Assembly: GCA_903825245.1 (NCBI GenBank)
Contig: CAIJZX010000030.1
Span: forward strand, 1-52,636
Source: Candidatus Kerfeldbacteria bacterium
GTDB lineage: Bacteria > Patescibacteriota > Patescibacteriia > SBBC01 > CAIJZX01
DNA: 52,636 bases
Direction of reading: 5' to 3'
A model generated the notes under the pieces. The model did not search any database and had not been told where the DNA came from. It saw nothing but the letters and a program-made list of their open reading frames with translations. Of this stretch, positions 39,900 to 51,964 are shown one piece after another. A program made the translations under genes and the position numbers. How positions within the stretch are numbered: position 1 is the stretch's first letter; every line of letters begins with the position of its first letter.

Positions 39900-40409
39900 A
39901 TGTCAGAATTATTTTCAAAACTCGGCATTGATTGGCGGCTCCTGATCGCCAACACCATCACGTTCTTCATCGTGCTGTGGGTGTTGCGGAAATTCGCTTT
40001 CGGTCCGATTATGGACGTCTTGGAAAAACGGCAAAAAACCGTCGGCGACGGCTTATCTGCCGCCAAGCGTTCGTCGGAAGAGTTAGCGGCCATTCAGAAA
40101 GATAAAGTGGAAATCCTCAAAGCCGCGAAGACGGAAGCGCTAGCGATTGTCCATGAAGCAAAGAAGCAGGGCGAGACCGTGAAAGCGAAGTTAGCCGAAG
40201 ATGCACAGGCGGAAGCGATGGCCACGCTGGAACGAACGAAGAAGCTTCTGGAACGCGAACGCGAAACGATGGTCAATAAGGCGAAAGTCGAATTGGCCGA
40301 TATTATCGTGGCCGCGTCGGAAAAAGTCGTGGCGGTAGCGCTCGACGCCAAAACGAAAAGCGCTATGACCAAGGAAGCAGTCGCCGCGTTAAAGGAGGTA
40401 CAGTCCTAA
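39900..40409 (+). CDS. atpF: F0F1 ATP synthase subunit b
   Basis: 169 aa. One membrane helix (about residues 13-33, LLIANTITFFIVLWVLRKFAF) precedes a long charged, heptad-rich helix that forms the peripheral stalk. Only one b-type gene is present, so a b2 homodimer is expected. The final codons contain AAAGGAGGT, which doubles as a ribosome-binding site for the HD-domain gene, whose ATG overlaps the atpF TAA. Confidence 0.94.
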   Translation: MSELFSKLGIDWRLLIANTITFFIVLWVLRKFAFGPIMDVLEKRQKTVGDGLSAAKRSSEELAAIQKDKVEILKAAKTEALAIVHEAKKQGETVKAKLAEDAQAEAMATLERTKKLLERERETMVNKAKVELADIIVAASEKVVAVALDAKTKSAMTKEAVAALKEVQS

Positions 40410-40882
40410 TGTCCAGCCGGTACGATCTCTTCATTCGTGATCTCCTGAGCCATCCTGATGTTCAGGAGTTGCATCGTACCACTGCACATTGGCGGCGCGA
40501 TCGTTTTGATCACAACTACGCCGTCGGCCAACTGTCGTACCGCTTAGCGACGGCATTCCACGCCAATGTTGTGGTGGCCGCGCGAGCCGGTTTTCTCCAC
40601 GATTGGTATCACGGTCACGCGCCGGAACGCCAACGGTTCGTGAACGCCGACCAACATCACTTCCGCATCGCCCATCAAGCGGCTAGCCAGTATGGCGAAC
40701 ATCCGCGCATTCTTCACGCCATTCGCACACACTTCTGGCCATGGGGACGGACGTTGCCGAAGACGCGCGAAGCGTGGATCGTCTGGATGGCGGACAATAT
40801 CATTTGGCTCGACGATATTTGGCAGAGTTTGAAAATCGTTACGCGCCAGGGATTCGGTTACTTCATCTTCGGAAATGCATGA
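40409..40882 (+). CDS. HD-domain protein inserted in the ATP synthase operon
   Basis: 157 aa. An HD-type metal site is visible: His35 (FDHNYAVGQ), His64-Asp65 (GFLHDWYHG) and Asp129 (WMADNI), with extra His at 83-84 and 98. HD proteins are usually phosphohydrolases of nucleotides or (p)ppGpp. The ATG overlaps the atpF stop (TAATG), and AAGGAGGT sits 9 nt upstream, so it is translated with the ATP synthase. It is not a known subunit. Nucleotide-linked control of the enzyme is a speculative role. Confidence 0.8.
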   Translation: MSSRYDLFIRDLLSHPDVQELHRTTAHWRRDRFDHNYAVGQLSYRLATAFHANVVVAARAGFLHDWYHGHAPERQRFVNADQHHFRIAHQAASQYGEHPRILHAIRTHFWPWGRTLPKTREAWIVWMADNIIWLDDIWQSLKIVTRQGFGYFIFGNA

Positions 40883-40883
40883 T

Positions 40884-40957
40884 CCTGTTAGGCAGCCCAT
40901 CTTCCATATATCGCACTATGCAAACTTCCTCCACTAAAAAATTGACTGTCTAACGGG
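40884..40957 (+). repeat. Inverted-repeat element ending at the atpH start codon
   Basis: CCTGTTAGGCAG (40884-40895) pairs with CTGTCTAACGGG (40946-40957) over 12 bp including two G-U pairs, with a 50-nt loop. The right arm directly abuts the atpH ATG. Same family as 42854-42955, 51038-51112 and 51860-51935. Confidence 0.75.
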
Positions 40958-41350
40958 ATGAAACGACTCTCCGCCACCACCTACGCCCAACTTTTATTCG
41001 AAAGCACTGTCGATAGCACAGGTGCTGAACGCCATGAGGTTGTTCAACATTGGTTACAACTCGTACGTCGTCATCGGGCGATGAAACTGATGCCGCGCAT
41101 CATTGCCCACCTGGAACGTTTCACGGATACGGCAGCCAAGCAAACGCGCGTCCGTGTGACCGCCGCGACCACCGAAGATGCTCAGAACATTACCGACGAA
41201 CTGACTGATGTTCTCGGTCGTGTCGTCATCGACCTGACGGTCGAACCTGCCCTCCGCGGCGGGCTCGTCCTCCGGGTCGGCGACGACGAAATTGACAGTT
41301 CACTTCAGACTCGTTTCCGCCAACTTCATCAACACTTGATCAATTCCTAA
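40958..41350 (+). CDS. atpH: F0F1 ATP synthase subunit delta
   Basis: 130 aa, shorter than the usual 175-180 aa. The N-terminal YAQLLFES helix and the C-terminal segment ([12 protein letters not shown] ... [29 protein letters not shown]) match the delta/OSCP fold. It joins the F1 head to the b stalk. The start is preceded by TCTAACGGG instead of a Shine-Dalgarno site. It lies 4 nt before atpA. Confidence 0.88.
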
Positions 41351-42853: not shown

Positions 42854-42955
42854 CCCGTCTGAAATTGCCACACATGAATACTCAACCGACAAGCAACAGA
42901 CAGCAACGAAAGTATGACGATGCCGCCATGTTTATTTATCTAAATTTCTAACGGG
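42854..42955 (+). repeat. Inverted-repeat element ending at the atpG start codon
   Basis: CCCGTCTGAAATT (42854-42866) pairs with AATTTCTAACGGG (42943-42955) as 5 bp, a 2-nt internal mismatch and 6 bp, with a 76-nt loop. The right arm directly abuts the atpG ATG. Confidence 0.7.
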
Positions 42956-43867
42956 ATGCCTTCCGCCGGACGCGATATACAGCGACGGATTCGTTCCGTC
43001 ACGAGTACCAAGAAGATCACCAAAGCGATGGAGCTGGTGGCGAGCGCAAAAATGCGCAAAGCTAGCGCCGCTGTTTTGGCGACTCGGCCGTACACCGATC
43101 GCGCCTGGGACATGCTCTTGAATTTAGCCCAGCGAACCGAATCGTCGCAGCATCCGTTGCTCGTCGAACGACTGGAGACGAAAAAGGTGGGCGTGATATT
43201 AGTCGCTTCGAATCGCGGCTTAGTCGGCGGATTTAATACGCAACTTACTGCCACCGTTGCTCGAGGAATCAAAGCATTATTCACAACAACCGAAGTTTCT
43301 GCCGAAGTGATTTTGATGGGAAACAAGGGCAAGATGATTCTGTCCCAGCATGGAATACCGATTTCCGCCGAATTCCCGAAGCAAGATGTGGTGACTGATG
43401 TGCTCGGTATTCGGCCGATGGCGAAAATGGCGATTGATCGTTTTCTCTCCGGCGACTATGATCGCGTTCTCGTCGGTTATATGGATTTTGTATCGATGCT
43501 TGTGCAACAACCGAAACTTCGTCAAATATTGCCGCTCAACACCGCTGGTTTCCTGAACGGTGATCACGAGAAAAAAGCCGAAGAAAAAACTTCGGAACTC
43601 GCCTCATTTGAATATCAATTTGAGCCGAATGCTGACGAGGTGCTCGAATATATATTACCGCGGCTTGTGGAAATGCAATTGTATCGCGCGGTCTTAGAAA
43701 CGAATGCCTCCGAACAAGCGGCGCGGATGGTGGCCATGAAGAGTGCCTCCGATGCAGCCGGTGACTTAATCGATGATTTAACCTTAACCTTTAACCAGGC
43801 GCGCCAAGCGTCGATCACGCAAGATCTGTCGGAAATTTCCGCCGGACGCGCCGCCCTCGAATCATAA
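42956..43867 (+). CDS. atpG: F0F1 ATP synthase subunit gamma
   Basis: 303 aa. The N-terminal helix of the rotor reads RDIQRRIRSVTSTKKITKAM, continuing ELVASAKMRKA. The C-terminal helix carries AARMVAMKSASDAAGDLIDD. Both are the family hallmarks, and together they form the coiled-coil shaft. The central Rossmann-like part has VASNRGLVGGFN. The start follows TCTAACGGG directly, as in atpH. Confidence 0.96.
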   Translation: MPSAGRDIQRRIRSVTSTKKITKAMELVASAKMRKASAAVLATRPYTDRAWDMLLNLAQRTESSQHPLLVERLETKKVGVILVASNRGLVGGFNTQLTATVARGIKALFTTTEVSAEVILMGNKGKMILSQHGIPISAEFPKQDVVTDVLGIRPMAKMAIDRFLSGDYDRVLVGYMDFVSMLVQQPKLRQILPLNTAGFLNGDHEKKAEEKTSELASFEYQFEPNADEVLEYILPRLVEMQLYRAVLETNASEQAARMVAMKSASDAAGDLIDDLTLTFNQARQASITQDLSEISAGRAALES

Positions 43868-51037: not shown

Positions 51038-51112
51038 CCCGTTAGACAGTTATTCAATAAGTGGTATATGGTCTGTCAGACGAGTATCCTTCGATGTAGG
51101 GCTGTCTAACGG
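51038..51112 (-). repeat. Inverted-repeat element ending at the rpmB start codon
   Basis: CCGTTAGACAG and CTGTCTAACGG (plus-strand 51039-51049 and 51102-51112) are perfect 11-bp inverted repeats 52 nt apart. Read on the minus strand, the proximal arm abuts the rpmB ATG, as in atpH and atpG. Confidence 0.8.
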
Positions 51113-51127
51113 AACCATAGGAAAATC

Positions 51128-51859: not shown

Positions 51860-51935
51860 ACCCCGTTAGAGCGCCCGAGGCCATCACCAATATAAAGAAA
51901 TAGGGACCAACTATTCTTCCCCACTCTAACGGGGT
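51860..51935 (+). repeat. Inverted-repeat element between the M50 gene and the rpsL promoter
   Basis: ACCCCGTTAGAG (51860-51871) and CTCTAACGGGGT (51924-51935) are perfect 12-bp inverted repeats 52 nt apart. The left arm follows the M50 stop by 8 nt; the right arm directly abuts the -35 box of the rpsL promoter. Fourth copy of the family. Confidence 0.8.
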
Positions 51936-51964
51936 TTGACAGTTCTTTGGATGAATGGTAGAGT
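51936..51964 (+). promoter_or_regulatory. Consensus promoter of the rpsL-rpsG (str) operon
   Basis: TTGACA (51936-51941), 17 bp, TAGAGT (51959-51964), predicted start near 51971, giving a leader of about 95 nt, long for this genome. Confidence 0.75.

Follow-up and report, generated by a model that had tools for sequence, protein, structure and literature searches.

The window and its elements

The DNA described here, referred to below as the window, is a complete stretch of 52,636 nucleotides from Candidatus Kerfeldbacteria. Three of its genes begin immediately after the same nine bases, TCTAACGGG, which lie directly before the ATG at 40949-40957 (+), 42947-42955 (+) and 51038-51046 (-). These positions were noted in a preliminary description of the sequence, which named the genes correctly: Pfam identifies them as OSCP/delta (atpH), ATP-synt gamma (atpG) and Ribosomal_L28 (rpmB). 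It also judged chance to be an unlikely cause, and here, too, we agree, since placement before start codons is far above chance. The window contains two further occurrences that had escaped mention, at 51862-51870 (-) and 51925-51933 (+), and these are both arms of one more copy of a larger structure. Five occurrences compare with 0.32 expected from shuffling, and five were reached in 0 of 100 shuffles.

Genome-wide there are 57 occurrences of the 9-mer and 11 of a reversed control. In 15 of the 57 a start codon comes next, opening an ORF of 45 codons or more; most of the rest belong to the same inverted repeat as its other arm. The 9-mer, that is, forms one arm of CCCGTTAGA-(about 45-120 nt)-TCTAACGGG, a structure of which this 1.3-Mb genome of Kerfeldbacteria type (Patescibacteria) has about 30 copies, with more in other phyla. 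A variant anti-Shine-Dalgarno pairing was considered and rejected: the 9-mer has its pairing partner in the distal arm of the same structure. A search of the literature found no description of the motif in this setting, and a search of plasmid sequences gave no match. The elements of the window, and the genes and short ORFs that accompany them, are as follows:

40879..40882, +: left target copy ATGA of the atpH element; TGA is duplicated at 40959-40961
40879..40953, +: 24-codon upstream ORF; starts at the left ATGA, crosses the element and ends with TAA 4 nt before the atpH ATG (MILLGSPSSIYRTMQTSSTKKLTV)
40884..40957, +: 74-nt element upstream of atpH; the left arm (CCTGTTAGGCAG) shows slight decay, the right arm reads CTGTCTAACGGG
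40958..41350, +: atpH (delta subunit), PF00213; start codon made up of the element's terminal A and the duplicated TG
42854..42955, +: 102-nt element upstream of atpG; the left arm (CCCGTCTGAAATTG) is decayed, the right arm is intact
42956..43867, +: atpG (gamma subunit), PF00231
50854..51037, -: rpmB (ribosomal protein L28), PF00830
51038..51113, -: 76-nt element upstream of rpmB, with TCCGTTAGACAG as its left arm and CTGTCTAACGGG as its right; predicted fold z = -1.9
51050..51118, -: 22-codon upstream ORF; runs from the left ATGG copy and stops at a TAA, 12 nt short of the rpmB start codon
51855..51861, +: left flanking repeat of the fourth element, GTTTGAC
51862..51933, no strand assigned: fourth element, 72 nt, in the -35 box between an M50 peptidase gene and rpsL; predicted fold z = -4.2
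51934..51940, +: right GTTTGAC repeat; restores the -35 box TTGACA (51936-51941), 17 nt before TAGAGT (51959-51964)

Left arms are partly decayed in the start-codon copies of the window; in the atpH element 10 of 12 arm bases pair, and the predicted fold has z = -2.1. The left ATGA of this copy also closes the preceding gene, 40409-40882 (stop 40880-40882), for an HD-domain protein. That this gene lies between atpF and atpH, inside the operon for ATP synthase, is an observation in its own right, as is the brevity of the delta subunit: its 130 aa align only to positions 64-172 of the OSCP model, and the N-terminal part seems to be missing.

Architecture of the element

The genomic survey was made by fetching 4 kb around every genomic copy of the 9-mer, and end pairing was examined in 237 distinct copies drawn from this genome, its relatives and public genomes. 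The consensus is Y-CCCGTTAGA-NNN ... N'N'N'-TCTAACGGG-R, 63 to about 140 bp in length with an arbitrary interior. The termini are 13-bp inverted repeats. Each begins with an outer Y:R pair, continues with nine invariant bases and finishes with three positions that differ from copy to copy but pair with their counterparts in the same copy. The outer base (-1/R) is complementary in 222 of the 237 copies, and bases 10, 11 and 12 are complementary in 227, 215 and 218, respectively, with several types of base pair represented. Complementarity at these positions accordingly stands at 91-96%, and it drops to chance level from base 13 on. That these end bases vary, and yet remain complementary, suggests that the ends may be recognized in a folded strand, or else that one arm may be repaired from the other by way of the hairpin.

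Most interiors are unrelated from copy to copy. Homologous dispersed copies, with near-identical interiors at different sites, are few (L078/L080, and three copies in L148/L167). Some interiors are curious. One element (L320; G399 C64:8767-8860), within a tRNA cluster, has as its interior a complete tRNA-Pro(CGG) gene. In G296, G261, G385, G129 and G143, a 63-72 nt sub-type has an interior of two GC-rich hairpins, giving a three-way junction, and looks like a separate amplifying lineage. Copies are nested in G041 (L125, L128), one element inside another with arms shared. In G007 (C2:25584-25741, C6:49931-50088 and C13:9909-10067; L106, L108 and L114) two differing elements lie side by side with only a 5-bp target copy between them, as if a second element had struck the rebuilt start codon.

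Evidence for mobility

Flanking repeats and placement were examined in three sets of copies, 23 from this genome, 64 from relatives and 91 from public genomes. The copies are flanked by direct repeats of 3-5 bp, far above what shuffled pairing gives: 5-bp repeats at offset 1 occur in 9/23, 11/64 and 25/91 copies of the three sets, compared with 1.2, 1.0 and 2.1. The length of the repeat is not constant within this 3-5 bp range, and some start-codon copies, such as that of atpG, have no clear repeat. The atpG copy of the window shares this property with the start-codon copies of L189, L344, L345, L152 and L035; the far side in this set reads ACTTGT or ACCTGT, and the far copy of the start codon is TTG or CTG.

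Relatives supply the sites without the element. The preliminary description had expected the 9-mer to be more frequent beside start codons than away from them, and to be retained by orthologues in close relatives. The first expectation is borne out by strong enrichment; the second is not. The rpmB gene of G003 provides an empty orthologous site, and the atpG element, present in this genome (G000) and in G003, is lacking in G002 and in G005-G010. The fourth element tells the same story for a promoter. Upstream of rpsL, G000 has GTTTGAC-element-GTTTGACA, whereas the -35 box is single and intact in G001 and G003, whose promoters run on uninterrupted (TTGACA...GTAGAGT in G001, TTTGACA...GTACAGT in G003). 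Direct repeats together with orthologous empty sites mark these as miniature insertion elements rather than a conserved leader; the hairpin-forming insert, apparently, is mobile.

Placement on start codons and -35 boxes

Gene starts here are simple ORF calls, not the output of a gene finder or of experiments. On this basis, ORFs of 70 codons or more begin exactly at the edge of the element (offset 0) in 9/23, 31/64 and 36/91 copies of the three sets, compared with values near 1-4 at other offsets. A fresh set of about 60 copies behaves likewise, 34 having an ORF start at offset 0. Among copies flanked by R|TGRA, 73 of 86 lie on start codons, against 6-12% of those TGRA sites of the same DNA that are either non-coding or at a start, and the genes downstream of the 86 are diverse, falling into 73 protein clusters. 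About half of all copies lie off start codons, some of them on -35 boxes. The latter make up a second class, with a right edge of R|TTGAC and a -10-like hexamer 17 nt farther on; the -10 score is at least 5 in 7/35 of these, compared with 0.8 in shuffles.

At start codons, the original start is still present in the left flank (ATGA-T| or ATGAA-C|), and R+TGA appears at the right edge. In C/G-type copies the ATG has become GTG, so the first base of the rebuilt start is supplied by the element. Start-codon copies often occur inside ATGA overlaps, where the TGA of the upstream gene falls within the duplicated target and its stop is at -1/-2 of the left edge. Judged from its junctions, insertion evidently spares the gene: the terminal R and the duplicated target rebuild the start codon—ATG, or GTG if R is G—or the -35 box.

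The element might, instead, be mobile without being selective. Random insertion at T(N)NA sites, followed by selection that removes the rest, would leave a preference for start codons and -35 boxes that is one of retention only. Copies that rebuild a signal would be expected to survive in this case, and the open upstream frame of start-codon copies, described below, does show selection on or after insertion. The same sequence is found about ten times more often at neutral intergenic sites, however, yet only 13 of the 86 TGRA copies lie there, and retention alone would have to act against most intergenic DNA. We consider this explanation rather unlikely; that so few copies occupy comparable neutral sites speaks for a degree of preference for start codons.

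In other phyla, TATAAT-like boxes are common 18-21 nt before the edge in the left flanks of start-codon copies, and SD-like motifs are found in a minority. This is suggestive, and only suggestive, of leaderless promoters: many of the genes hit in these phyla may have very short leaders, or none.

An upstream ORF and a possible translational relay

In the taxonomic order to which the window belongs, the duplicated start opens a reading frame that begins at the left ATG copy, crosses the element, and ends at TAACGGGATG or ATGA. Within TCTAACGGGATGA, a TAA closes frame 1 four nt short of the start codon, frame 2 runs out at the TGA contained in ATGA, and frame 0 would fuse with the gene. Among Kerfeldbacteria start-codon copies of 70-80 nt, the sense frame is open in 31 of 43, compared with 17.4 expected when interiors are shuffled, a signal that emerged from the initial sets, was then refined, and is to that extent post hoc. 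The antisense frame is open in 8 of 43, and copies away from starts are open on 21 of 62 strands, which is at the chance level (Fisher p = 1.5e-4). The excess is steeper at ATGA-overlap sites in the non-zero frames (19/21 open, 7.6 expected), and it persists when one copy is taken per downstream protein cluster (20/27 versus 10.5). In the fresh set the frame is open in 8/28 copies against 6.1 expected; the copies from G006 with an upstream start copy, the only ones of the window's order, are open in 4 of 6. As a general property of the element the upstream ORF was therefore rejected: it is seen in the window's order and absent in other clades.

The stop of the upstream ORF in Kerfeldbacteria start-codon copies is mostly at -4 or +4. 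That of atpH, a TAA ending 4 nt before the ATG, falls within the short gap (about -8 to +10 nt) over which a stop and the next start may be coupled. Termination-reinitiation coupling is known from ATGA overlaps (PMC6728339, PMC10666635); it depends on overlapping genes or on gaps that are very short, and is almost abolished when the gap reaches about 20 nt (PMC10666635). An untranslated insert of 75 nt at an ATGA overlap should therefore uncouple the two genes, and an ORF that crosses it and ends at -4 or +4 would restore the coupling, if such a relay works. The pattern of frames is consistent with a relay of this kind. The left duplicate would keep the old start signal; ribosomes would initiate at the left ATG, translate the element as an upstream ORF of ~25 codons, terminate at TAACGGGATG or ATGA beside the rebuilt start, and begin again on the gene proper. 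Without this, the rebuilt start would stay hidden in the hairpin, and expression would come to depend on the relay. The likeness to known coupling lies in the ATGA or short-gap stop-start junctions at both ends of the upstream ORF; the difference is that the ORF here comes from an inserted element. If translation is affected at all, this would follow from the insertion, and the upstream frame is the best-supported part of such an effect.

Mobilization, and other readings of the hairpin

Probably, then, TCTAACGGG forms the terminus, on the side of the gene, of a non-autonomous miniature mobile element that sits preferentially on start codons and -35 boxes, rebuilds them and, in the window's order, would carry a relay ORF. 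Such an element would be moved by an enzyme acting in trans, one that recognizes folded or base-paired ends and inserts the element by a staggered cut. The transposase families PF01797 (Y1/HUH, RAYT), PF01609 (DDE_Tnp_1) and PF13701 (IS1380-type) are all missing from this genome, and were rejected as the mobilizer for that reason. No long element bounded by these ends appears among the arm positions listed for the better-assembled relatives, and the only long spans in the fetched loci are of 327 and 534 bp, in L174.

REPINs, palindromic non-autonomous elements that RAYT transposases (TnpA-REP, HUH) move as single-stranded hairpins, come to mind at once. They consist of two inverted REPs with a variable spacer between them (PMC3116915), and the elements described here are likewise palindromic, hairpin-forming and dispersed, with structure-dependent ends, a variable spacer, and no transposase linked to them. 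PF01797 is absent, however, from this genome and from G014 and G041, all of which have copies. The ends match neither of the tags named in the title of PMC3733652, GTAG and CGTC, and the flanks of the copies are of the R-T(N)NA type, instead. The direct target repeats and the start-codon and -35 sites set these elements apart, and a search of PMC3116915 gave no match for targeting of start codons. We regard a REPIN/RAYT origin as improbable.

The preliminary description had proposed a translational switch, in which the distal arm buries the start codon. Part of this survives. A pairing arm is present in all three cases (40884-40895, 42854-42867 and 51102-51113), and predicted RNA folds set it against the ATG at atpH and rpmB, although the fold at atpG does not exceed chance; a strong hairpin is predicted for the copy at 51862. 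Placement before starts and a pairing arm thus stand, and a conserved, riboswitch-like leader that hides the start codon and regulates translation would, in addition, account for the inclusion of the first base of the start codon in the Y:R pair and for the variation of bases 10-12 with pairing kept. What does not stand is the conservation of the switch. Interiors are unrelated, the genes downstream are as diverse as we have seen, target sites are duplicated, copies occupy -35 boxes and other sites away from starts, orthologues lack the element, and pairing stops sharply after 13 bp. No Rfam model matched in the window at gathering score, and five other loci gave only tRNAs. As an ancestral leader the hairpin is largely refuted, and we think a regulatory RNA of this kind very unlikely.

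Integron attC sites, too, are folded and recognized by structure with variable sequence, and GTTAGA and TCTAAC resemble their core sites (GTTRRRY / RYYYAAC), but the identification is scarcely credible and was rejected: the arms are reversed (GTTAGA ... TCTAAC here, GTT first and AAC last, versus RYYYAAC first and GTTRRRY last), there are direct repeats on both sides and no gene cassettes, and what lies downstream are core genes such as rpmB and atpG.

Among known elements, the insertion element proposed here may be compared with bacterial MITEs, which are also short, non-coding and dispersed, with terminal inverted repeats, direct target repeats, and empty sites in relatives. It differs in that most interiors are non-homologous, the inner bases of the inverted repeats vary between copies while remaining complementary within each, the preference for start codons and -35 boxes is strong, and no parent transposon was found. 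Rickettsia palindromic elements are tolerated within gene sequences, in frame inside ORFs; the elements described here, in contrast, sit exactly on start codons and are mostly out of frame.

Distribution and significance

The exact two-arm pattern is present in 11 of 57 relatives and in 35 of 380 genomes of the phylum; the reversed control is zero in every genome listed. Public genomes, among the matches listed, include Kerfeldbacteria, many other Patescibacteria, and bins labeled Deltaproteobacteria, Nitrospirae, Planctomycetota and others, in a scan that allowed six gap lengths, with ~20 matches estimated to arise by chance and errors of binning possible. Single matches outside the Patescibacteria are weak. 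Five stretches of IMG/VR (viral) contigs carry the element (L346-L350), and in two of these an ORF starts exactly at its edge (260 codons in L348, 640 in L349); L348 also has a short, near-minimal palindrome of both arms.

This is an insertion element with an unusual design of its ends and an unusual, function-preserving preference of target. Whether it belongs to something larger we can say only tentatively. It is conceivable, and we put it somewhat short of an even chance, that the copies represent a mobile-hairpin system that crosses phyla, in which a new mobilizer reads paired ends, not a fixed sequence, accepts any interior, even a tRNA gene, and targets and rebuilds start codons and -35 boxes, with a relay ORF that in one order keeps the host gene translated. 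Known mobile elements mostly avoid genes or break them, whereas these land on the signals with which genes start, and rebuild them, in genomes of down to about 1 Mb. For annotation there is a warning: what passes for a short leader at rpmB, atpG or atpH in these genomes may have arrived by insertion. If the larger reading is true, it would offer a lead to an insertion enzyme that acts on folded ends, and a way for uncultivated bacteria to acquire new upstream ORFs and, with them, coupled translation; and insertion would have, in nature, a rule for landing safely.
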